Of a stretch of DNA of 23,638 nt, positions 5,726-23,365 are shown in pieces (the first letter of the stretch is position 1; every line of letters starts with the position of its first letter). Source of the stretch: Cochliopodium minus (taxonomy: Eukaryota; Discosea; Himatismenida; Cochliopodiidae); assembly GCA_024220525.1 (NCBI GenBank), contig JAMYWO010000299.1, positions 1 to 23,638 of the forward strand, in the 5' to 3' direction. The notes under the pieces were generated by a model. That model ran no database searches. It was given only the letters and a program-made list of their open reading frames with translations, and was not told the origin of the DNA. The translations under genes and the position numbers were made by a program.

Positions 5726-8236
5726 ATGAAGCAATTTTCTAAAAAGATAACCAAATACACCAAGATTGGTACAAACAATATTCTCAAAAGATTCGGATCT
5801 AATGAAACAGTTCCAAAAGTAAAGAAGAATTTAAAACATTATTTAATATTAGAGTTAAAAATATGCACAAATTACTTTATAATTAGTTATTAACACCATC
5901 TTTTTTCCTTTTATTTTTATTTGGGGAAAGGAAGAAATATTTAAAAAAAATTGTTAATTTCTTGTTTTCATATTAATTTAAATTATTTGCTTAGATCTTT
6001 GGGTTGAATGTATTCAACAATGAAAGATTGGAATCAAGACTTCCAACTGAAGTATACAAGAGATTCCTCAGATATGTAGAAAATAGAGAAGAGAAATTGG
6101 ATCCACATACTGCAGATTTGATTGCAACAGCACTCAAAGATTGGTGTGAATCAAGGGGAGTATCTCATTTTTCTCATTGGTTCCAACCTTTGACTGGAGC
6201 AACAGCAGAAAAACATGATTCATTCATCAAACACGTGAGAGGACATGTCATCAATAATTTCAGTGGAAGCAGATTATGTGAAGGAGAGCCTGATGCATCA
6301 TCATTTCCAAATGGAGGATTGAGACCAACACATCAAGCAAGAGGATATACAGTATGGGATCCATCATCTCCACCATTCATCATGGAATCAGCAGGTGTTC
6401 CAACTTTATTCATTCCAACTGTATTTTTTTCATGGAAAGGACATGCATTGGATACCAAATTACCATTATTACGCGCACAAGCATCAATGAATAATTCTGC
6501 AAAGAGATTATTTACAATTGCAGGATTTCCTGAACACAACAAATTCCACAGTGATAGTGGAGTTGAACAAGAATTCTTCTTGATCGATTTGGAACAATAT
6601 CAAAAAAGACCTGATCTCGTTTTATCAGGAAGATCATTGCAAGGAGCAGCTCCATCAAAAGGACAAGAATTATGTGATTCTTACTTCGGACCTATCTCCG
6701 AAAGAGCATGGAAAGCAATCAATGAAATGGAAAAGGTATTGTGGAAATTGGGAGTGCCAATCACAACCAGACACAGAGAAGGAGCACCAAATCAATATGA
6801 ATTGGCCCCAATTTATGAACCGACCACCATCGCTACCGATCACAACATGATCACCATGGAAGTGATGCACAGAGTCGCAGCAAAACACGGATTGGCAGTT
6901 TTGCTTCACGAGAAACCCTTCAAAGGAGTTAATGGATCAGGAAAACACAACAATTGGTCTCTCGGCTCCAACAAAACAGGATCCCTCTTCAATCCAGGAA
7001 GCGATCCAATTAACAATTTGCCTTTCCTCATGACCCTTGCAGCTACCATCAGAGGAGTAGATCTCCACCAAGATCTCTTGAGATTCTCCATCTCAGGAGC
7101 TGGTAACGATCATCGTCTCGGTGCCAACGAAGCCCCACCTGCCATCTTCTCCATCTATCTCGGAGATGATCTCGATAAAGTTGCAAATGCCATCATTCAA
7201 GGAGATAGCAAGAAATTGGATCTTTTAGGTAAATACGTTGACTTCAATGTTCCTTTCTTGCCTGAATTCCAATCTTCCCCAACTGATAGAAATCGTACCT
7301 CTCCTTTCGCTTTCACTGGTAACAAATTTGAGGTCAGGGCTGTCGGTTCTTCTCAGTCTCCTGCTTTCTCCAACATCATCTTGAACACCATGATCGCTGA
7401 GAGTTTTGATTTCATGGCCACAAGTATCGAAAAGAAAGTACAATTCGGACAATCACCTGAAAAGGCAGTCAGAGAAGTTATCAAAGAAATCTTTGTAAAT
7501 AATTTTTTGATTAGAAATTTCAATGCACCTTTTATCAGGCATATAAATTTCATTATGAAAGAAATTATCAAAGAATCATCTTTTAATTTTTAATTTTTTT
7601 TTTGCAGACAAAACATCAAAGAATCATCTTCAACGGAAACGGATACAGCGAAGAATGGCAAATTGAAGCAAAGAAAAGAGGTCTCCTCAACTTGAGAACC
7701 ACTCCTGATGTTCTCGAGATCGTACAAAACGAAAAGAACAACACATTGTTCGAAGAAACTGGTGTCTTGAACAGAGAAGAGTTCAACACCTATGTAGATG
7801 TAGGGTTTGACAACTATTCCAAGAGAATTTCCCTCGAATCTTTCTGTCTTGCAAACATGTCCAACCAAAATCTTTTGCCTGCAGCTGTATCTTATTTGAA
7901 TGAATTGAATCAAGGTAAAAAATTTTTCAAATAAAAGTTAATCGTAAAATTAATTCTTACCTTTTTTTAATAGCTAAATTAACAGATAGAGCAAACAGAG
8001 TCAACAAATTGGTTGAATTAGGATTCCAACAAACAGATACTTTGACCAAAGCTGCAGAAGAACTTGAACATCTCATTGAACAAGATGTCAGAAAGGCTTC
8101 TCGTTTCGCAGTTGATAATGTCATTCCTCTCATGGTTGAAACCAGAAACACTCTTGATACTCTTGAGAAGCTTGTTCCAAAGAATTACTGGCCTATTCCA
8201 AGATATGAAGAAATTCTTTTCCATCAACATCTTTAA
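5726..8236 (+). CDS. Glutamine synthetase type III, copy 1
   Basis: ATP-dependent ligation of ammonium to glutamate, the main ammonium assimilation step. Four exons: 5726-5818, 5995-7494, 7608-7914 and 7974-8236, totalling 2163 nt (720 aa), the usual length for the GSIII (GlnN) family and far longer than GSI or GSII. Residues 32 on begin IFGLNVFNNERL. The metal-binding GVEQEFFLID block lies at about 220-229, the HREGAPNQYELAPIYEP block near 291, GSGKHNNWSL near 345, and NRTSPFAFTGN near 460. The C-terminal GSIII domain ends YWPIPRYEEILFHQHL. The start is set by ATG plus 31 residues strongly conserved in copy 2. Introns are GT-AG. Read-through of intron 2 would stop early at 7593. Tandem with copy 2, 712 nt downstream. 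Confidence 0.97.
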
Positions 8237-8948
8237 AAAATTCATCGACAAAATTAAAAAAAAAAATGTTTATTTAAAAATTTTATACAAGTTTTTTTTT
8301 AATTTATTCATCTTGTTCCAATCTCAGTTCACTTTTCATTTTTTTAAAGGCAAGGTTTCATTTATTATTTTATTTTTTTTTTTGGACTTAAAATTAAAAT
8401 TAATTAAATATATTGTTTTATCTGAACGGATCTTTTCATTTAATTTTTTTTTATTATTTTGGCGATTGACTTTTTCTTTGAAACGGAGTTTTCTTTCTTT
8501 CCCCGAGATAAATTCAAATAAAATTGATTAAAATAATTGAATTATCTACCACTCACAACCAACTAAGAGGAAACTTTCTTGAAAGAATTGAACTCATTTT
8601 AACATCATCTTGAAATCTAAAGATAAAGTAAAAAGATTGTGAAATATTTCTCATTCTAATTTTATCAATCCTTAATTGAAATGAAATTTGATTGGAAATT
8701 ATTTTTTGCTTCAAATAAAAATAGATATATATATGAATTGCTACACAAGATATTACTTTACTGAAACAATATATGAAAGAACTTATAGAAAAACTAGAGG
8801 GATGTGATTGGAAAAGAAAAGCAAATTTTTTTTAATAATTTTTTCATTTATTTCTAAATTAATTTTTTATTTGATTTAATCGACAATTAATAATAATTAA
8901 AAAAATATAAAAAAAAAACTACTTAGTTAATTTAAAGAAGGGAAACAA
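8237..8948. other. Intergenic region between the two glutamine synthetase genes
   Basis: The first 200 nt are T-rich 3' flanking sequence with only chance frames. The bipartite element lies at 8474-8509. A stretch around 8665-8700 (beginning ATCAATCCTTAATTGAAATG) resembles 5271-5310 upstream of copy 1, so the duplication seems to have included promoter DNA. Confidence 0.6.
8474..8509 (+). promoter_or_regulatory. Bipartite upstream element of glutamine synthetase 2
   Basis: TTCTTTGAAACGGAG, 12-nt spacer, CCCCGAGAT, about 440 nt before the ATG (about 720 nt in copy 1). Similarity extends 5' into CGAT-GAC, so the conserved unit may be about 45 nt. Confidence 0.55.
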
Positions 8949-11563
8949 ATGAAGCAATTTTCTAAAAAGTTAACCAAATACACCAAGATAGGTACAAACA
9001 AAATAATTAAAAGATTCGAATCAAGAGAAACAGTTCCAAAAGTAAGAAAAATAAATTATTTTAATTAGAAGCTTTGATAATCAAAAAAAACAAATCTTTA
9101 TTTTTTCGCCATATTTTAATAAATGAATACAAAGAAATATAAAAAGAAAATAAAAAAAAAATGACCTTGTTATCTTAAAAATATATAATTCATATAAATG
9201 TATCTCATTCATAGATCTTCGGGTTGAATGTATTCAACAATGAAAGATTGGAATCAAGACTTCCAACTGAAGTATACAAGAGATTCCTCAGGTATGCAGA
9301 AAATAGAGAAGAGAAATTGGATCCGCATACTGCAGATTTGATTGCAACAGCACTCAAAGATTGGTGTGAATCAAGAGGAGTATCTCATTTTTCTCATTGG
9401 TTCCAACCTTTGACTGGAGCAACAGCAGAAAAACATGATTCATTCATCAAACACGTGAGAGGACATGTCATCAATAATTTCAGTGGAAGCAGATTATGTG
9501 AAGGAGAAGCAGATGCATCATCATTTCCAAATGGAGGATTGAGACCAACACATCAAGCAAGAGGATATACAGTATGGGATCCATCATCTCCACCATTCAT
9601 CATGGAATCAGCAGGTGTTCCAACTTTATTCATTCCAACAATTTTCTTTTCATGGAAAGGACATGCATTGGATACCAAATTACCATTATTACGCGCACAA
9701 GCATCGATGAATAAATCTGCAAAGAAATTATTCGCCACTGCAGGACTTCCTGAACACAACAAATTCCACAGTAATAGTGGAGTTGAACAAGAATTCTTCT
9801 TGATCGATTTGGAACAATATCAAAAAAGACCTGATCTCGTTTTATCAGGAAGATCATTGCAAGGAGCACCTCCATCAAAAGGACAAGAATTGTGTGATTC
9901 TTACTTCGGACCTATCTCCGAAAGAGCATGGAAAGCAATCAATGAAATGGAAAAGGTATTGTGGAAATTGGGAGTGCCAATCACAACCAGACACAGAGAA
10001 GGAGCACCAAATCAATATGAATTGGCCCCAATTTATGAACCGACCACCATCGCTACCGATCACAACATGATCACCATGGAAGTGATGCACAGAGTCGCAG
10101 CGAAACACGGATTGGCAGTTTTGCTTCACGAAAAACCCTTCAAAGGAGTTAGCGGATCGGGAAAACACAACAATTGGTCTCTCGGCTCCAACGAATCAGG
10201 ATCCCTCTTCAGCCCAGGTGAAGATCCGATCAACAACATTCCCTTCCTCCTCACCCTTTCTGCCACCATCAGAGGAGTAGATCTCCACCAAGATCTCTTG
10301 AGATTCATGATCTCCGGTGCAAGTAACGATCATCGTCTCGGATCCCACGAAGCCCCACCTGCCATCTTCTCCATCTATCTCGGAGATGATCTCGATAAAG
10401 TGACAGATGCCATCATCAAAGGCAATGTCGACAGTTTGGATCTTTCGGGCAAGGTTGTCGAGTTCAATGTTCCTTTCTTGCCCCAATTCCAATCTTCCCC
10501 AACTGATAGAAATCGTACCTCTCCTTTCGCTTTCACTGGCAACAGGTTTGAGGTCAGGGCTGTCGGTTCTTCTCAGTCTCCTGCTTTCTCCAACATCTTC
10601 TTGAATACTTTGATTTCTGAGAGTTTCGATTACATGTCAACTCAAATTGAGAAGAAAGTAAAGTCTGGTCAATCAACCGATAAAGCAACAAGAGAAGTTA
10701 TCAAAGAAATCTTGGTAAAGAGAAATTTTTTTTTTCAAAGATATCTGTCAATTTAATACTCAACAATATGTTTCATTATTGATATATTTAATTTTATTTA
10801 TTTTTGAATTATTGTATTTAATTTAATTTATCTTCTTTTTAATTTTTAATTTTTTATTTATGAATTTTTTTAAAGACAAAACATCAAAGAATTCTCTTCA
10901 ATGGAGACGGATACAGCGAAGAATGGAAAAGCGAAGCAAAGAAAAGAGGTCTCCTCAACTTGAAAACCACCCCTGATGTCCTCGAAGTGATCCAAAACGA
11001 AAAGAACTACGAGTTACTCGAAAAGACTGGTGTTTTGAACAGAGAAGAGTTCGACATTTATGTTGATGTGGGTTTTGACAACTATTCTAAACGTGTTTCT
11101 CTTGAATCTGAAATCCTTGCAAACTTGGCAAATCAAAATCTTTTGCCTGCAGCTGTATCTTATTTGAATGAATTGAATCAAGGTAAAAAAAACTTTTTTT
11201 TAAAATAAAATATTCATATTTTTTTCATTTTTTTAATTTTTTTCAATTTTTTTAATCTTTTTTAATTTTTTAATTTTTTTAAATCTTTTTTTTTTAAAAG
11301 CAAAATTAACTGATAGAGCAAACAGAGTCAACAAATTGGTTGATTTGGGATTCCAACAAACAGATACTTTGACCAAAGCTTCTGAAGAACTTGAACGTCT
11401 CATTGAAAAAGACACCAAAAAGGCTTCACGTTTTGCAGTTGACAATGTCATTCCTCTCATGGTTGAAACCAGAAACACTCTCGATTCTCTTGAGAAACTT
11501 GTTCCAAAGAACTACTGGCCTATTCCAAGATATGAAGAAATTCTCTTCCATCAACACCTTTAA
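8949..11563 (+). CDS. Glutamine synthetase type III, copy 2
   Basis: Tandem paralog with identical exon lengths: 8949-9041, 9215-10714, 10876-11182 and 11301-11563 (2163 nt, 720 aa). It carries all the GSIII blocks of copy 1, including GVEQEFFLID, HREGAPNQYELAPIYEP, GSGKHNNWSL and NRTSPFAFTGN, so it should be active. By eye, exon 2 differs from copy 1 by about 10 residues over its first ~310 codons but by about 36 over the next ~190, an uneven pattern that suggests gene conversion. Introns are at the same positions but have unrelated sequence and different lengths. The gene converges on the NACHT/ankyrin gene, 145 nt away. Confidence 0.97.
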
Positions 11564-11708: not shown

Positions 11709-13475
11709 TTATTTTCTGAAAAGAAATTTTTTTGATTCAATTTGAATAGGGCCGTATTGAATCAAATATGCAGGAGAATATCCGTCATTATCTCTAATAT
11801 GTAAATTACCTTTATTTTCAATCAAATATTCGATAAGTATTTCACAAAATTTAGATTAATAGAGTAAGAAAAGTTTTTTGAATGTTGATATTTCTCATTC
11901 ATTTCTTTAATAATTTTCAAAACATTTATTTTTGTATTTTCTTCGTAATATTCTTCCAAACCCAAACAGATTTCTTTTTCAATCTCGAAAAATTTGTGAA
12001 GTAATAAATCCTCTATTACATATTTTTTTAAAATTTCAGGAAAAATAAGATTAAAAAAATCAAAATATTTTTTAAGAGTTTTTTTAAAAAGAAAAGATAA
12101 AAAAGGAGGAATCATGGTAGTATATTTCCACCTATTTCCTGTTTTTTTGACCCAGTTTACCATTTCTTTGTTTTTATTTTCAGTTCTTTCATTTAGTTTT
12201 TTGAAAATATATCTCGAACAAAAATATTCTTGGAAAGAAAAATGAGAAAATTCAAAAATAAAATTGTTTTCGTTCAAAACATTTATTTTTTGAGATTTTA
12301 TTTTTTTGAATATTCCACACCTTTTTATTGATTCCATTATTTTGTTTTTTTCTTCGATTTTTTCTTTTTTGGAAAGATTAGAATGTTTTTTTGAATTTTG
12401 AATTTCTTTTTGAATTTCTTTTTGATTGAAACTAAATTTATTGTTTTGAAATGTTTCAAACGAAATCTTTTCAATCAGTTTTTTCGATTTTTTTCTATAA
12501 TATTCATCTTCAATATTTTTTTTAAATAAGATTTGGATCATTGTTTTGTAAATATCTCCCATTTTAATTGTTTCCTTTCCTTCATTTTCTTTATTTTCGA
12601 AAATCATGCAAATCATTTCAAGAAATAATGGAATGTGACACAATGATTCTATTGATTTATTATTCAAAATATTTGGTCTTTCAATGTCACTTTCTTGAAA
12701 ATATTTTTGAACGAAATTATGAATTTGGATTTTGTCGAAACCATTTATTGTTAAATTTAAAGAAATATTTTTTAATCTTGTTTTTATTTCAGGTCTTGAA
12801 GTGATGATCATATTTTCAAATATTACCAAATCATTCAAATATTCTATTATTTCCGTTAATTTTTTGTTTTGAGATAAAATTTCAATTTCATCCAATCCAT
12901 CAAACACAAACAAAATTTGATTTTTATGGTTCATTTCTTTCAATAAATTTTTTTTTTTCAAATTTTTCCGATTCAAAACTATCCTCAAAATAAAATTTAA
13001 AAATGTGTTGTAAAATAGACTCGTCATTTTCATCAATATTTTTCAAATCGACATAAAAAATGAACTCAAAATTTTCTTTTTCAAAAATTTTTTTGTTGAT
13101 GAATTGATGACAAATAAACTTGGAAAGTGTTGTTTTTCCTATTCCTGCTTTTCCTTCAATTAAAATTCTTTTTTTGTTTTTGTTTTTTATTTCTTGGAAA
13201 ATATCACTCAATTCTATTGTTTGTCCCTTTTTCATTTGCTTTTCAAATGAATCTTTTTTATTTTTTGTTTCCGTTCCTTTTAATTTTTCACCTTCAGAAT
13301 TTTTAATTTGGAGTGTAACAAAAGAATCCAATATTTTTCTTTCTTTTTCAAAATCAAGAGATGAAATTTCGATATTTTCTTCGAAATATTTTTTCAAAAA
13401 TAATCCAATTTCTTTTGTCAATTTCACTTTTTCATTTTTTTCAGTTAAAATTTGGTTTTGTTCTTTTTTTTTCAA
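11709..13475 (-). CDS. NACHT ATPase with C-terminal ankyrin-like tail (probably the C-terminal half of a caspase-NACHT gene)
   Basis: NLR-type STAND ATPase. Walker A (EGKAGIGKTTLSKF) at about 13120-13160 and Walker B (LFVFDGLDEIE) at about 12880-12915. Further on come an ITSRPE sensor motif, a GFDKIQIHNFVQKYF segment, and FEFSHFSFQEYFCSRY, typical of the NLR winged-helix end. The last ~50 codons in another frame read like one ankyrin repeat (NLHIRDNDGYSPAYLIQYG) and end with TAA at 11709-11711. The frame changes at an 11-A run (12948-12958) and again in a T run near 11846-11849. Either these are homopolymer assembly errors or the gene is decaying; coding signal continues across both. There is no good ATG at the 5' side (TTG at 13475), so it most likely continues from the caspase exon just upstream. 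Confidence 0.82.
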
Positions 13476-15440
13476 TCTAAAAATTTTTTGAATGAATTCT
13501 CAAGTAGATACGAATTAATTTTCAAAAAACAATTTTGAAAAGAAGAACAAATCAAAGGAATTCCAAGAAATTCATCATTCAAATTGCCAAAGCTAGGAAA
13601 AATTATTTTCCTTGAATCAATATCATTATTCATCAAATCCCTCATTTTATCAACAATTTGTTGAGGAGATAAATAAGTATTATGAGATTGCTCTTCCAAA
13701 ACTCTAACAAAATAAAAAGAGAAATCACTTCGCCATAAATCATGTCCCTTCTTCACTTCAAAAGACCGCTTGTCATTAATACTTGAAGTGATGCACCAAA
13801 TACCTTGGTGAAATGAATTTACAATTAAATCTCCCAATTCAATGATTTTTGGGATTTCACCCAACACATTTCCTGAAAAACAACAATCCAAAATCAATAA
13901 ATTGTGTTTGTATCCCATTTTCAAAATGATTTCTTTCATTTCTAAAAATTCTATACCTCCTACTTCAACATCCTCCAAATCAAAATCGACACAACAAATG
14001 TAAAACTTTTCTTCATTTATTTTGTCACTATGTCCATGCCCTGAAAAATAAAAAATCAACAAACTCTTTTCTTCATCTTTCATTTCTTCTTTCCTCTCGT
14101 ACCCTCTCAACATTTCCTTCATTTCTTCTTTTTTGGTATCGGTTTTTAATAATTTCACTGAAAAACTTTTTTCTATAAACAATTGATTGATGCTTTTACA
14201 GTCATTTATCGATCCATCTAATTTATTAATTTTTTCATAATCATTGTTTCCAAAAATAAAAACATCTATTCTATCATAAAAATTAAAACTCGCCCCCTTT
14301 TTTAAAATAATAAAAAATATTAGATGATTATTCAAGTTAAAAATCTAATTACATCCAAATTTCTGTAATTTTTGTCAGTATTCAATGAAGTAATCGATAT
14401 GTGATCTTCATCTTTATTATTTTCTTCTTCACCAAAAGAGAAATTCATCAGATCTTTTAGGGATTCTTGATCATAGGTGGAAATCTGATTTTTTTCAATT
14501 GATTCATTTTTATTTGTCTTATTTCTTTCTATTTCTTCCAATTTTTCAATTATCAATTTTTTCAATTTTTCATTTAATTTAGATAATAATTCATAATCTT
14601 CCTATAAACAAACAATAGGATATTGAATTTATAAGGGAAAAAATAATTTTTGATTTTTGTATATGGTTATTTTGTATTTTTTTTTTTAAATGAAGAAGAT
14701 TCAGCCTAAAAATATTATTTCGCAATAATGAATAGCCCATCGATTACCAGAAAGATTTAGCCAAAATGAATTCCCATAACAACACTTCTTAACATTAACC
14801 GATTCTCTTGCTCTGATACAGACATACAACTGCTTGCCTAAAGGATATCCCCATAGTGCAGCGGGATTGTACCATCAAATGCAGAGGGATCAGCTCTGAT
14901 CGTCCAAAGTTGATAAATGAAAACAACCACCTCTTTTAGGGAAATTGCTATTCTTTCAATTTACACATTACCTTGAACATGCTATCAGATATGAAGGAGT
15001 ATATTCCAGAGGAAACCCCAATCAATTGCTCCATGAATATCTGTAGAATCCTAATGACCAAATATCTGGGTTACCAGGAAAATTCTGCAAATAATATCAA
15101 AAAAAGGGAGTTTATAAAAAACTAAAAAAGAATTGGCAAATTCTCTTCCCTTTTTTTTTTAGGTTATTTTGTATTTTGGAATCATTAAAATGAAATAACA
15201 ATTGAGGAAAATATATAAAAAAAAATTATTTACCTTTATAATCTCATATTTTTCACAAATATTAAGGAATGTTTCTTTATTGTTGATTAGAGATTCAAGT
15301 GAATTTTTTGATTTTTGAGAAAAGTTTGAATTATTGGTCAAATCTGAGAAAAAGGAAATGAGGCCATTTTCTTTCAATAAATCTATGAATTTGTTGATAT
15401 CATCAACTGTTAATTTAAAATCAAGAAATTCTTCCTTCAT
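13472..15440 (-). CDS. Caspase-like (peptidase C14) protein with helical N-terminal region; probable N-terminal half of a caspase-NACHT gene
   Basis: Three phase-0 exons: 15234-15440 (69 codons from ATG), 14353-14601 (83 codons) and 14296 onward. Residues 1-150 are charged and helical, ending in an Asn/Lys/Glu-rich stretch. Residues about 160-420 form a C14 caspase/metacaspase fold. The catalytic His is in YFSGHG (His239) and the Cys in LDCCFSG (Cys291), both after hydrophobic strands, with IDVFIFGNNDY and the SINDCKSINQLF helix before them. The frame ends at TGA 13472-13474, while the NACHT coding frame starts at the same place. A 35-nt GT-AG intron (about 13467-13501) or one missing base in a homopolymer would link them, so I read both as one gene of roughly 1000 aa. 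The first intron is long and contains a degenerate coding-like segment. Divergent from the small membrane protein. Confidence 0.82.
14690..15100 (-). pseudogene. Degenerate coding-like segment inside the first intron of the caspase gene
   Basis: About 400 nt that are visibly richer in G and C than the neighbouring introns. Minus-strand frames give protein-like fragments, for example PGNPDIWSLGFYRYSW, DIHGAIDWGFLWNILLHI, PSAFDGTIPLHYG and YPLGKQLYVCIRARE, but the frame keeps changing and stops interrupt. Intron-like borders (TTTGCAG acceptor near 15086, CAAG/GTAATG donor near 14970) separate two blocks. The LYV-R/A pattern faintly recalls DM9-type repeats, but I would not assign a family. It looks like a decayed host gene or a second-hand copy. 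Confidence 0.5.
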
Positions 15441-16316: not shown

Positions 16317-18067
16317 TTGAAAGGGGTGTATAATTTAACGAGACAAAAAAAGATTAAAAAGAGATTGTGGTACATTAACATTATTTCCATTTCTTCGTTG
16401 GTCTTCTTGTTCATTTTTGTTTTTTACGGATTGCCTAAACAGAAGCTCAACAATCCCATGTTGATTGCTCATAGGGGAGGAAGTTTGGATAGTGAGAATA
16501 CTATTGAATCTTTCAAGAAAATTTCAAAATATGTCAGCGTTTTTGAAACTGACATTAAATTCACGAAAGGTAAAAAACAAAAAATAAAAAAAATGAAAAC
16601 AAAATAAAATAAAAAAAAAAAAATTAAATTGAAAAACAATAAAAAAAAATTAAAAGTCAAAAAATTAAAAATTAAAAATTAAAAAAAAAAAATTTACAAA
16701 TTAAAAAAAATAAAAAATTTAAATAATTAAAAAATCAAAAATTAAAATAATAAATAATAAAATCAAATAAAAATAAAAAATAAAAAATAAAAAATTAAAA
16801 TTAAAATTAAAACGTCAAAAATTAAATAATTAAAAAATCAAAAAAAATTAAATTAAAAAAATTAAAAAAATGATAAAAGAAAAAAAATTTAAATAATTAA
16901 AAAATCAAAAAATTAAATTTACAAATTAAAAAAAATAAAAATTCAAAAAATAAAACAAAAAATTAAAAAAATTAAAATTAAAATTAAAAATAAATATTTT
17001 ATTTATGATAGACAGAGTTGCTGTTCTTTTTCATGATAAGACATTGTATCGAACCACCTCATATTACCTGCCCTACGAAACGAAAAAGAAGAGAATAGAA
17101 GAGCTGACCTACGAAGAGCTGGAGAAAATCGACTTTGGAGAATACTACGTCGAACAAGATCCCTTCAACGTCATCGCCAACAATCCCCTCTTCCAAAACC
17201 CCTCCAATCGGAACAACGAAGACGAAAAAATCGAGAAAACTAATCGAAATTTCATCAAAATCACGACTTTCGAAGAATTTTTGAAATTTTTGTTTGGTTT
17301 TTACGATGTTCGTTTCATTTTCGATTTACCTAATGACAGAGACGCTTCTTTGCAAGACATCAAACATGTTTATGGTCAGATCATTGAGTACAACCTTTTG
17401 AAGAGGGTTTATTGGCTCACAAGTCCCCTTAGGTTGCAGCGGGATTTGGAGTTTGCCAAGAAGCACAAAATCAAGTTTGTTTACAACTTGGATCCCTTTG
17501 TTGAATCTTCTGTGTCTCATCTAACAAAACTCAATGACAAGTAAAAAAAAAAATGTTACAAAATATTTTTAAAATTATTTTATTTTTTTATAATAATTTT
17601 TTAATTTTTTATTCTTTATTTTATCATTTTAAATTATTTTTAAATTATTTTTACTTAAACTGATTTTTCTTATTATTTGTTTCTATTTTTATTTTTATTT
17701 TTATTTTTCTTTTTTTGTTTTTGTTTTTTGTTTTTGTTTTCTATTTTTGTTTTTTTTATTTTATTTTTTAAAAAGAGATTTTCAGATGGTCAACACTCCT
17801 TTTTACTCTCTTGACTCTCACTTTACTTTCATCAAAGATACCAAAAAAATACGTGTAAATGTTTATGGTGTTAACGAATACTGGGCCTTCTACTACCTGA
17901 ACTGTATGGGTGTCGATTCTATCACCTCGGACGTTCCTCAATACTTCGCCGGCATTGGCAGGGTCTATTGTTTCCCTAGAAACTTCAATTTTTTGTGTTA
18001 TTATTTAGTTATTGCTTCCATTTTAAGTTTTTTCGTCGGATTTTTGTTTTTGAAGTATGAATATTGA
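16317..18067 (+). CDS. Membrane-anchored glycerophosphodiester phosphodiesterase (GDPD family)
   Basis: Hydrolyses glycerophosphodiesters to glycerol-3-phosphate and an alcohol. Exons: about 16317-16569, 17012-17540 and 17776-18067 (about 357 aa). An N-terminal membrane segment (residues about 21-38, ISISSLVFLFIFVFYGL) is followed by the GDPD signature LIAHRGGSLDSENTIESF (His52), FETDIKFTKD (Glu77, Asp79) and VLFHDKTLYRTT (His92), then the barrel up to GVDSITSDVPQYF. A second hydrophobic segment (LVIASILSFFVGFLFL) lies near the C terminus. Catalytic residues are all present. The 5' end is unresolved: no in-frame ATG precedes the HRGG motif after the upstream stop near 16302, so a short upstream exon (possible acceptor TTGAAAG at about 16323) or a non-ATG start is needed. 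Intron 1 (442 nt) is unusually A-rich on the coding strand. Confidence 0.88.
16570..17011 (+). repeat. A-rich low-complexity intron of the GDPD gene
   Basis: 442 nt built almost entirely of AAATTAAA- and AAAATAAA-type words, with degenerate repeats of AAAATTAAAAATTAAA. Apart from splice sites nothing else is visible. A-richness on the sense strand is opposite to most introns in this window. Confidence 0.7.
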
Positions 18068-18151: not shown

Positions 18152-19753
18152 ATGAGACTTTCCCTTGTTTTTATTGTCTTCTCCATTTTCTTTTCTTGTT
18201 GCTTTGGTTATGATTGTACACCTACATTGGATGGAAAGAAATATGACTTTACTGCCTTGGCCAGAGAGTAATATATTTCCCTCCCCACAGTATCAAGTTA
18301 TTTATAACACATCTATCTTTTTTAATAGCTCTGATTATTTGATAACGAAGGAGGATTCTGGAAAAAGTAAAAATTTTTAAATTTGATTTTGAGATTTATA
18401 TATTCAATAAAATCAACATCCTTTATACAATTTGTCATTAATTTTGAGTCCCATTGATATTTTTGAATATAAATATTGAATTTTATGAAATTTTCCTTTT
18501 ATATCAGATGAATTCAAGAATATTCAAACAATCTGTTATAATTATTGATCAATTAATCACAATCTTTATAATACATTGATAATTTTTCAAAAATTTTTTG
18601 GGAAAACAATAGATGCCCATTATGCCCACAAATACAATAAACATATCTTTCTTAAGAAAAAGAAAAATTTCATTCATAACCAACAAAATTTAAACTGAAC
18701 AAAAATTTTGAAAATCTTTAAACTTCTCATTTGTTCATTAAAAAATTAAATAAAAAAATTTCTTTAAATTGTAATAAGATTGTTTGCTTAAACATTAATT
18801 TCAAAATAGATTGGGACATTTACTTGAACTTTTGTAGAGCTACATCGGAAACACAATATTGCACAGACCCAGACACAGCAATATGTCAGGTGTGGGACTA
18901 CAACTGCGTGGAAAAGGGGTGTGGAGCAGGTTCTTTGGGGTCTGTCAAGGAAGTCGCTTATTCTCTCGTAAATGGGGATGTTGTTTATTCTTACAAAGGT
19001 GGAAAAGATGATAGAAATTCTACCATCCGTTTCATATGTTCTCCTGGGTAAATAAAAAAAGAAAATTAATTGTTTTATTTCAAAATTAAAATTTTTTAAT
19101 CAGTAAAATGTTTATCAATAAAAATTTTTTAAAATAAAAATTATTTTTGGCATTTTTTTTTTAATCTTGATTATTTTTATTTATTATTTTTATTTATTAT
19201 TTTATTCTTTTTGTTTTACTTATTCTTTTTGTTTTAATAAATTAGAACAGGAGTGGGATTTCCAAAATTCGTGAGTGAAGACCCACTCAAAGAATACAAC
19301 TTCGAGTGGCCAACCCAATACGCCTGCCCTCCCAACCCCTCCAGCTGCACCTTCACGCTCTCCAACAGACAAATCTCCCTCTCCACCCTCCGCTCCTCCA
19401 CCGACTTCTACATCGCTCCCGACTACAGCATCAACATATGCGGATCTCTCATCAACAGATGCATTTCAAATGTTACTGATTCCATCGCTTGTCAACGTTT
19501 TCCTAACACGGAACTTTCTTTGGGAAGTTCCTCTCAATACTCTTATTCTTTTGATTCTCATCTCAGTTCTTTGAATATCACTTATGTAGGTGGTGACGCT
19601 GGCAGAAAGACCAACTTTGTCGTTTTATGCTCCAAAAATTATGAGGAGCCTTTCTTTTTGAATGAGAGCCCCGTTAAAGTGTACAACTTTATTTGGAGAA
19701 ACCCTTTGGTTTGTAATTCAACTAGTTTTGTTGATTCTTTTCTTAATAAATAA
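18152..19753 (+). CDS. Secreted or lumenal protein with two MRH (mannose-6-phosphate receptor homology) domains
   Basis: Four exons, 18152-18267, 18329-18366, 18810-19047 and 19246-19753 (900 nt, 299 aa). ATG is followed by a signal peptide (about residues 1-19, ending SCCFG). Domain 1 (about 20-155) begins YDCTPTLDGKKYDFTAL, includes WDIYLNFCRATS, the CQVW motif and STIRFICSPG, and closes with YNFEWPTQYAC. Domain 2 (about 156-295) begins CTFTLSNRQISLSTL, includes YSINICGS, IACQ and TNFVVLCS, and closes with YNFIWRNPLVC. The paired Cys, the Gln after Cys and the Arg before the late Cys fit the glycan-binding MRH fold. No C-terminal membrane anchor is seen, unlike cation-dependent M6P receptors or Atg27, so a soluble ER/lysosomal lectin is plausible. 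The 443-nt second intron is of higher complexity than the others. Confidence 0.8.
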
Positions 19754-21735: not shown

Positions 21736-23365
21736 TTAAAATTTTGATTTGGAAGTTTTTGAAATTTCTTCTAGGAGATCAAGCGTCTTTCTAGCAGAAA
21801 TTCTGTTATATCTCGACCACATTTTCTGGATGAGCGAAAGGTAAAGGGGAGAAGGGAAGTCTTGAGGGAGTGAGGGTCTTTCTCCCTTCATTATGTCGTC
21901 TTCCAACTGAAACATGAAAGAATTTGATTGTACTGATTTGTGATGACTAAAAGGGTATTCTCTTGATGTCTAAAAGAAAAAAAATCAATAATAAATTATC
22001 AAATAATCAAAAAAAATTAAAAAAATTTAAAAATAAATAAAAAATTTAAAAATTAAAATGAATATTTTTTACCATTTCCCAAAATACTATTGAAGCAGAA
22101 TAAATATCAACTTTCTCATCGTATGCGGTATTTTCCTTTTTAAAAATAAATTAATTTTAATTTTTGATGATTTTTTAAAATAAAATTTTACCATGATTTC
22201 GGGAGCCAACCATACTGGATTGTCAACATTACCTCTGCCATAAAAATAAGTCGAAACCATTCTCGACTCTCCAAAATCAGTGATCTTTAAAAATAAAAAA
22301 TTTGAGGAAAAAATAAAATAAACATTTTTAAATTTTAAATAAAATGAAAAATAAATGTTTTTGAAAAGATTACTTTTGCGATTATTTTGTCATTTTCATC
22401 GATTGAAGACAAAAGAATGTTAGGTGATTTTAGATCTCTAAAATTTAATTAAAAATAATTGAAAAAATAAACAAAATAAAAATAAAATAAAATAGACAAA
22501 ATAAAAATAAATTAAAAATTAAAAATTAAAATAATTAAAAAAATTAAAAATAAAAAATTAAAAATTAAAAATTAAAAAATTAAAAATTAAAAATTAAAAA
22601 TTAAAAATTAAAAAATTAAAAAATTAAAAAAATAAAATAAAAAAAAATTGGTAAATTTACCTATGTACAACTTTTGGAGATTGAGAATGCATGAAATCCA
22701 GGGCGGAGGCGATGTTTTTGGAAATAGTGTAGATCATTTTGAGAGGGAGTTGATTGTCTTTGTTGCTGATGTAGTCAAACAGATTTCCGTGCTCCACTAG
22801 TTCAAGGAGTATAGAATGCGTTGGAGTCATAGCATATCCTATCATTTCTATTATGTTTGGGTGTTTAAGGAAACTAACCAAATAAATGAAAAATAAAAAA
22901 ATCAAAAAATAAAAAAATAAAAAAAATAAAAAAATAAAAAAATAAAAAATCAAAAAATAAAAAAATAAAAATAAAAAAATAAAAATATTTTAAAATTGAA
23001 TAAAAAAATAAAAAATAATCTTTTTTTGATAATGATGATACTTATTAATTAATAAAATAAAAAAATAAAAAAATAAAATAAAATTTGAAATGATTAAGAA
23101 ATAAAACAAAAAATAATAAAATATTTTAATAATATTAAAAAAAGTTACTTAAGTAAAGTAATTTCTCTTCTAAATTCTCTAAAGTTTTCGTTTGAAACAC
23201 TAGAATTGAGTTGTTTCAAAGCAACTTCTTCGCTGTAATACTCTATCTCTTCTTCCTCCTCACTACTTTCCAACTCAGTTGATTCCTTGATACTTTCTAA
23301 ACTTCCGCTAATTGATTTCTCTTTGGGTCTGAGTGCCTCTGCTCTGAACACTTTTGCGAAAGCAC
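21736..23365 (-). CDS. TKL-like protein kinase, N terminus off the right edge
   Basis: Protein kinase that phosphorylates Ser/Thr (possibly Tyr). Exons: 23149-23365, 22661-22873, 22374-22437, 22192-22284, 22073-22135 and 21736-21969. The first visible exon starts within the glycine loop (G-AFAKVFRAEAL). VALKQL carries the ATP-anchoring Lys, FRREITLL the C-helix Glu, HPNIIEMIGY follows, then LLELVEHGNLFDYI, VVHRDLKSPNIL (catalytic loop), ITDFGESRM (DFG), PVWLAPEIM (APE), DIYSASIVFWEM, and RPSLPQ near the C-lobe end; stop TAA at 21736-21738. HRDLKSPN and WLAPEIM are TKL/tyrosine-kinase-like, and DFGESR resembles amoebozoan TKL kinases. A ~30-residue Ser/Glu-rich insert separates the glycine loop from the VALK strand. 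Domains N-terminal to the kinase are not visible. Should be active: Lys, Glu, HRD and DFG are present. Confidence 0.92.
22441..22660 (-). repeat. AATTAAAA-type low-complexity repeat in a kinase intron
   Basis: Near-tandem AATTAAAA and AAATAAAA words across about 220 nt (TTTTAATT on the coding strand). It fills the intron between HRD-coding exons; nothing else is visible. Confidence 0.7.
22874..23148 (-). repeat. A-rich (T-rich on the coding strand) repeat intron in the kinase gene
   Basis: AAAAAATAAAAAAT-like tandem words over about 180 nt of a 275-nt intron. The splice borders (GTAACT donor, TTAG acceptor) are intact. Confidence 0.65.

Follow-up and report, generated by a model that had tools for sequence, protein, structure and literature searches.

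A probably decayed C14–NACHT–ankyrin gene and its family of candidate one-protein NLR-like receptors in a protist

Results and discussion

The window, a 23,638-nucleotide stretch that is contig C296 of a 44.65 Mb assembly (C numbers denote contigs of this same genome), carries on its minus strand, from 15440 to 11712, two leading exons, one N-terminal and one charged and helical, then a C14 caspase domain, a NACHT domain split into two pieces, and lastly an ankyrin repeat. We consider it fairly probable that this locus belongs, as a decayed copy, to a family of protist receptors that are NLR-like, consist of one protein and comprise, in order, a helical N-terminal domain, C14, NACHT and ankyrin repeats. 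The C14–NACHT fusion is real in relatives of the window copy; as sequenced, the window copy itself cannot produce the fusion in a single frame.

The order of domains on one strand had been proposed in an initial annotation of this DNA and was confirmed. Exon 1 (15234–15440, minus strand, as are all features of the gene) carries the ATG and encodes a helical N-terminal domain of 69 residues; its donor position is the same in C13 and C86. The putative intron 1 (14602–15233, 632 nt, GTAA...TAG) is enlarged by an insert of roughly 480 bp (14679–15161), which is flanked by a 14-nt direct repeat (15162–15175 and 14665–14678). The insert shares 458 bp at 100% identity with C159:35584–36041 and has further partial copies at 75–100%; it is a recent mobile insertion. 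Exon 2 (14353–14601) encodes a charged helical linker, the start of which matches a profile built with exon 2 of C86 and C13, and is followed by a putative 56-nt intron 2 (14297–14352); the intron at the corresponding place in C13 measures 50 nt. The C14 domain (13475–14296) matches Peptidase_C14 of Pfam (PF00656) over 13475–14344 with E = 1e-21 and 78.1 bits against a curated cut-off of 21.4. Its His motif YFSGHG (14050–14033) and Cys motif LDCCFSG (13891–13871) are intact, as originally described. The NACHT domain occupies two overlapping frames. The first part (12927–13499; PF05729, E = 4e-8) lies in a second frame and contains Walker A (13154–13128), and the second part (11825–13042; PF05729, E = 1.6e-6) lies in a further frame and contains Walker B (12913–12887), a helical region and the end motif FSHFSFQEYF (12250–12221). 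Both Walker motifs and the end motif of the initial annotation were thus located, though Walker A and Walker B are split over two frames. The locus closes with a leftover ankyrin repeat and a stop (11712–11855). None of 200 Markov simulations of the window produced a run without stops longer than 176 codons, a length that the open frames of 290, 191 and 406 codons all surpass. The three main pieces are without internal stops and 44–56% identical to C13, the C14 domain being 55% identical over 271 columns.

Profile searches of the 44.65 Mb genome gave at least 24 matches to PF00656 and at least 26 to PF05729, including the two in the window. When paired by position and strand, C14 is followed by NACHT on the same strand at no fewer than 14 loci including the window, with gaps of 436–842 bases; at least 10 C14 matches have no NACHT partner and at least 11 NACHT matches have no C14 partner. 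C14 and NACHT share one uninterrupted frame at nine of the 14 loci (C13, C86, C250, C105, C126, C24, C46, C300 and C258). They lie in two frames at C108, where an intron was read just after the catalytic Cys, and at C80 and C129; at C461 and in the window the frame changes. A Pfam scan for ankyrin repeats took in eight of the nine single-frame loci and placed them in the same frame as C14 and NACHT in six (C13, C86, C46, C126, C258 and C300). The ninth, C250, runs into N bases and only its first 1127 residues were therefore used; ankyrin-type repeats were identified in C250 by eye. C105 and C24 gave no Pfam ankyrin match in the NACHT frame, and both frames break. Pfam also placed ankyrin repeats in the NACHT frame in C108, C80, C129, C118 and C461 (the NACHT of C461 being below cut-off), and TPR repeats after ankyrin in C86 and C258. 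Walker A and B are complete in the NACHT of the relatives (Pfam scans). Of the C14 domains listed by a motif script, which gave 14 and left out four of the 18 fetched C14 loci, 13 retain both catalytic positions. Two other arrangements were observed in passing. In C42 (L042 2–2983) ankyrin repeats precede C14 in one frame, the reverse of the usual order, and a single contig, C50, has three matches to NACHT plus two weak ones to C14.

The initial annotation placed a frame change at the caspase/NACHT border. This change is present, but there are three in total, at about 13475–13500, about 12945–12962 and about 11850. Aligned to single-frame C46, the window pieces cover residues 5–269, 269–464 and 437–840 without a gap. 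Since the pieces are collinear with intact relatives, the border change lies inside continuous coding sequence, and we reject two separate genes for C14 and NACHT. The fusion originally proposed is borne out at the nine single-frame loci, with which the window pieces are collinear, but effector, NACHT and repeats do not form one polypeptide in the window copy, the frames of which are broken. A 35-nt intron (13477–13511) that would join C14 to NACHT in an intact gene has GT...AG ends, and its removal shifts the frame suitably. It begins GTAT, however, whereas the 12 introns that we catalogued, with boundaries set by hand, all begin GTAA and, apart from the insert-bearing one, span 50–161 nt. 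The 35 nt align with residues that are coding in C46 and C250, and such an intron would leave the two remaining frame changes unexplained. We regard this intron as very improbable and, on the catalogue and the match to the relatives, rejected it.

The second NACHT piece aligns to residues 322–720 of C108, and the window repeat (11840–11748) aligns to an ankyrin repeat of C108 at residues 820–858 (41% identity; BLASTP E = 3e-7, six-protein database), hence nearly the whole array is missing. The ankyrin-like tail of the initial annotation is thus genuine in its homology, but amounts to about one repeat, in another frame and with no Pfam match, compared with several to many repeats in relatives. 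The three frame changes, together with the reduction of the array to about one repeat, indicate that the window copy is probably decayed, or else partly mis-sequenced. Each frame change lies close to A or T stretches 4 to 11 bases long and may be an assembly error. That all three are such errors and the gene is intact would also agree with the stop-free main pieces, with their identity to C13 and with the frame shifts in the relatives C105, C24 and C461. Assembly errors do not account for the near-total loss of the ankyrin array, and the neighbouring tandem glutamine synthetase genes retain frames of 532 and 513 codons. We therefore judge an intact gene unlikely and infer decay in preference to sequencing error.

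When spliced, exons 1–3 form one frame that meets its stop just past C14 and gives a 426-residue product of N-terminal domain and C14 with the catalytic motifs intact, perhaps a genuine short protein. If this were all that the locus now yields, the NACHT part would be dead sequence. The 10 of 24 C14 matches that have no adjoining NACHT match suggest that C14 without NACHT may exist in this genome. Against this, the NACHT frames are still stop-free over 191 and 406 codons, and we consider this reading quite unlikely. The same stop-free lengths imply that any decay of the window copy would be recent.

A profile made from the N-terminal domains of the window, C13 and C86 also matches C108 (1.8e-8), C250 (6.5e-8) and C46 (1.5e-5); three of the six carriers are thus independent of the profile. 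Pfam yields nothing for this domain above the curated cut-off. In animal NLRs its position is occupied by adaptor domains, and the protist domain may by analogy have such a role. For the C14 domain, a profile of nine family members was compared with solved structures. The nearest was MALT1 (5e-7), caspases and metacaspases matching weakly (4e-4 and above). AlphaFold, with 27 prokaryotic rows as input, gave a model of the window C14 with a mean pLDDT of 76.4 and a pTM of 0.75, the last 45 residues being poorly modelled. In Foldseek this model returned MALT1 at ranks 1–17 (best E 1.6e-11), then plant metacaspase and caspases. The structure prediction suggested in the initial annotation thus assigns the window C14 a predicted caspase fold, paracaspase-like. 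The superposition on MALT1 (TM-score 0.58, rmsd 5–6 Å, about 16% identity) indicates a shared fold and not close kinship.

One relative has a different effector. C118 (L052 1369–6304) combines, apparently in one gene, a degenerate C14, NACHT, ankyrin repeats, a kinase and a KEN ribonuclease. Its C14 domain is not reported by Pfam and reads YFRGSC and LDCVGLN in place of YFSGHG and LDCCYSG in C300; both catalytic residues are lost. The ankyrin frame ends with a kinase glycine-rich loop (by eye). The kinase is interrupted by two putative introns and is followed by a Ribonuc_2-5A match (E = 3e-16), one of three in the genome. An alignment of the last frame to IRE1 (3e-29) shows R, N and H preserved, which we take to be the KEN active-site residues. 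A 15-row NACHT tree (C188, which has no anchor motif, was dropped) groups C118 with C80, C300 and C129 at 100/100, a value to be read with an unsettled bootstrap and a long C118 branch. These three retain the C14 catalytic residues. A search for an OAS partner (OAS1_C, PF10421) gave no match in the genome, the control being silent too. Tentatively, and as a possibility rather than an expectation, we suggest that the C14–NACHT–ankyrin unit is one NLR chassis with exchangeable outputs, a protease in most copies, and that in C118 the NACHT switch may directly drive an RNase L-like enzyme without a 2-5A messenger.

By analogy with fungal CHAT-NLRs and bacterial metacaspase–NACHT–WD40 proteins, the intact proteins are probably sensor–switch–effector receptors. 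The ankyrin repeats would sense a ligand or a guarded protein, upon which NACHT would exchange nucleotide and oligomerise. The C14 domains so crowded would become active and cut substrates, and this cleavage would lead to death or an immune response; in C118 the same crowding would switch on the IRE1/RNase L-type kinase–KEN end. Sensing, oligomerisation, proximity activation and the death or immune role are here all inferred. The proteins might instead be signalling or housekeeping STAND proteases, and MALT1, the nearest solved structure, serves signalling. The many divergent copies, the frame-broken copies and the changed effector of C118 fit immune-type turnover, so we hold this alternative to be somewhat unlikely and retain the receptor reading.

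Comparison with known systems

In animals, NLRs are linked to caspases through separate adaptor proteins, a point also made in PMC10197012. Bacterial metacaspase–NACHT–WD40 proteins have been described (PMC2853523, PMC3501461), in line with the bacterial C14–NACHT fusions mentioned in the initial annotation. They resemble the protist family in that a single polypeptide joins a C14-type domain to NACHT and to repeats at the C-terminus. NACHT is carried by 15 of 671 prokaryotic metacaspases (PMC3501461). The repeats of the bacterial proteins are WD40, pentapeptide or HEAT, whereas those of the protist family are ankyrin, a word that does not occur in PMC3501461. The initial annotation had also cited fungal C14–NACHT fusions. 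Caspase-related NLRs do exist in fungi, but their protease belongs to the CHAT family and not, as in the protist, to C14 (PMC10197012, PMC12881547). These fungal CHAT-NLRs, described as contracted pyroptotic-like pathways (PMC10197012), are like the protist family in placing a caspase-related protease inside an NLR and in having ANK among their repeats (the same two papers). Gasdermin partners are known for the fungal proteins, whereas a search of the protist genome for a gasdermin substrate (PF04598) gave no match, control genomes being silent too.

Two further systems resemble parts of the family. MALT1, nearest to the protist C14 both by sequence profile and by predicted fold, is not known to carry NACHT or ankyrin repeats. 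RNase L shares with C118 the ankyrin repeats before kinase and KEN; C118 differs from RNase L and IRE1 in its extra dead C14 and NACHT. The KEN row of a table in PMC3710099 gives kinase, ankyrin, CCCH, UBI and BRCT, NACHT being absent from that row, and the same paper describes NACHT or STAND fusions, in animals and bacteria, for other RNases of the HEPN superfamily.

Prokaryotic relatives of the C14 domain were found at 78 loci, one of them archaeal and the other 77 labelled bacterial or unspecified, with 22–38% identity. Among the 900 frames of at least 150 residues at these loci, none had a protist-type NACHT in the C14 frame; the sole NACHT match was weak (E = 0.008) and in a frame other than that of C14. 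Bacterial NACHTs may escape the profile used, as it derives from protist ones. Of eight prokaryotic C14 frames scanned with Pfam, one (L058) has an AAA_35 ATPase ahead of C14 and two combine C14 with TPR. Within the 78 C14 loci scanned, no support emerged for a prokaryotic source of this domain order. Of 72,556 plasmid records, seven match residues 1–640 of C13, in the C14 part only and over at most 30% of the query.

A limited search of the open-access literature named no protist C14–NACHT–ankyrin protein or NACHT–KEN fusion. Bacterial C14 and fungal CHAT fusions are known; on that search, the protist C14–NACHT–ankyrin family and its RNase version are new. With at least 14 loci, the family offers a eukaryotic single-protein C14–NACHT–ankyrin version testable outside animals and fungi. 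C118, if functional, would couple the NLR switch straight to an output of RNase L type and would suggest that effectors are exchangeable on one chassis.

Genome context

The window and 20 fetched loci, a sample of the genome, are 73% A+T (27% GC); this composition and the spliceosomal-type introns fit a eukaryote. The value differs from the 80.65% A+T given for Anaeramoeba ignava (PMC11550330). PFO (PF01855) had no match in the genome, and the control matched 10 of 14 genomes; absence with a working control argues against an anaerobe. Elsewhere in the window, 5995–11563 holds type III glutamine synthetase genes duplicated in tandem, with GSIII_N on the first (Pfam), and fragments of GDPD-like and protein kinase genes lie at 16954–17541 and 22660–22989. 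A frame at 19241–19750 matches the CIMR (mannose-6-phosphate receptor) repeat with E = 1.5e-11.
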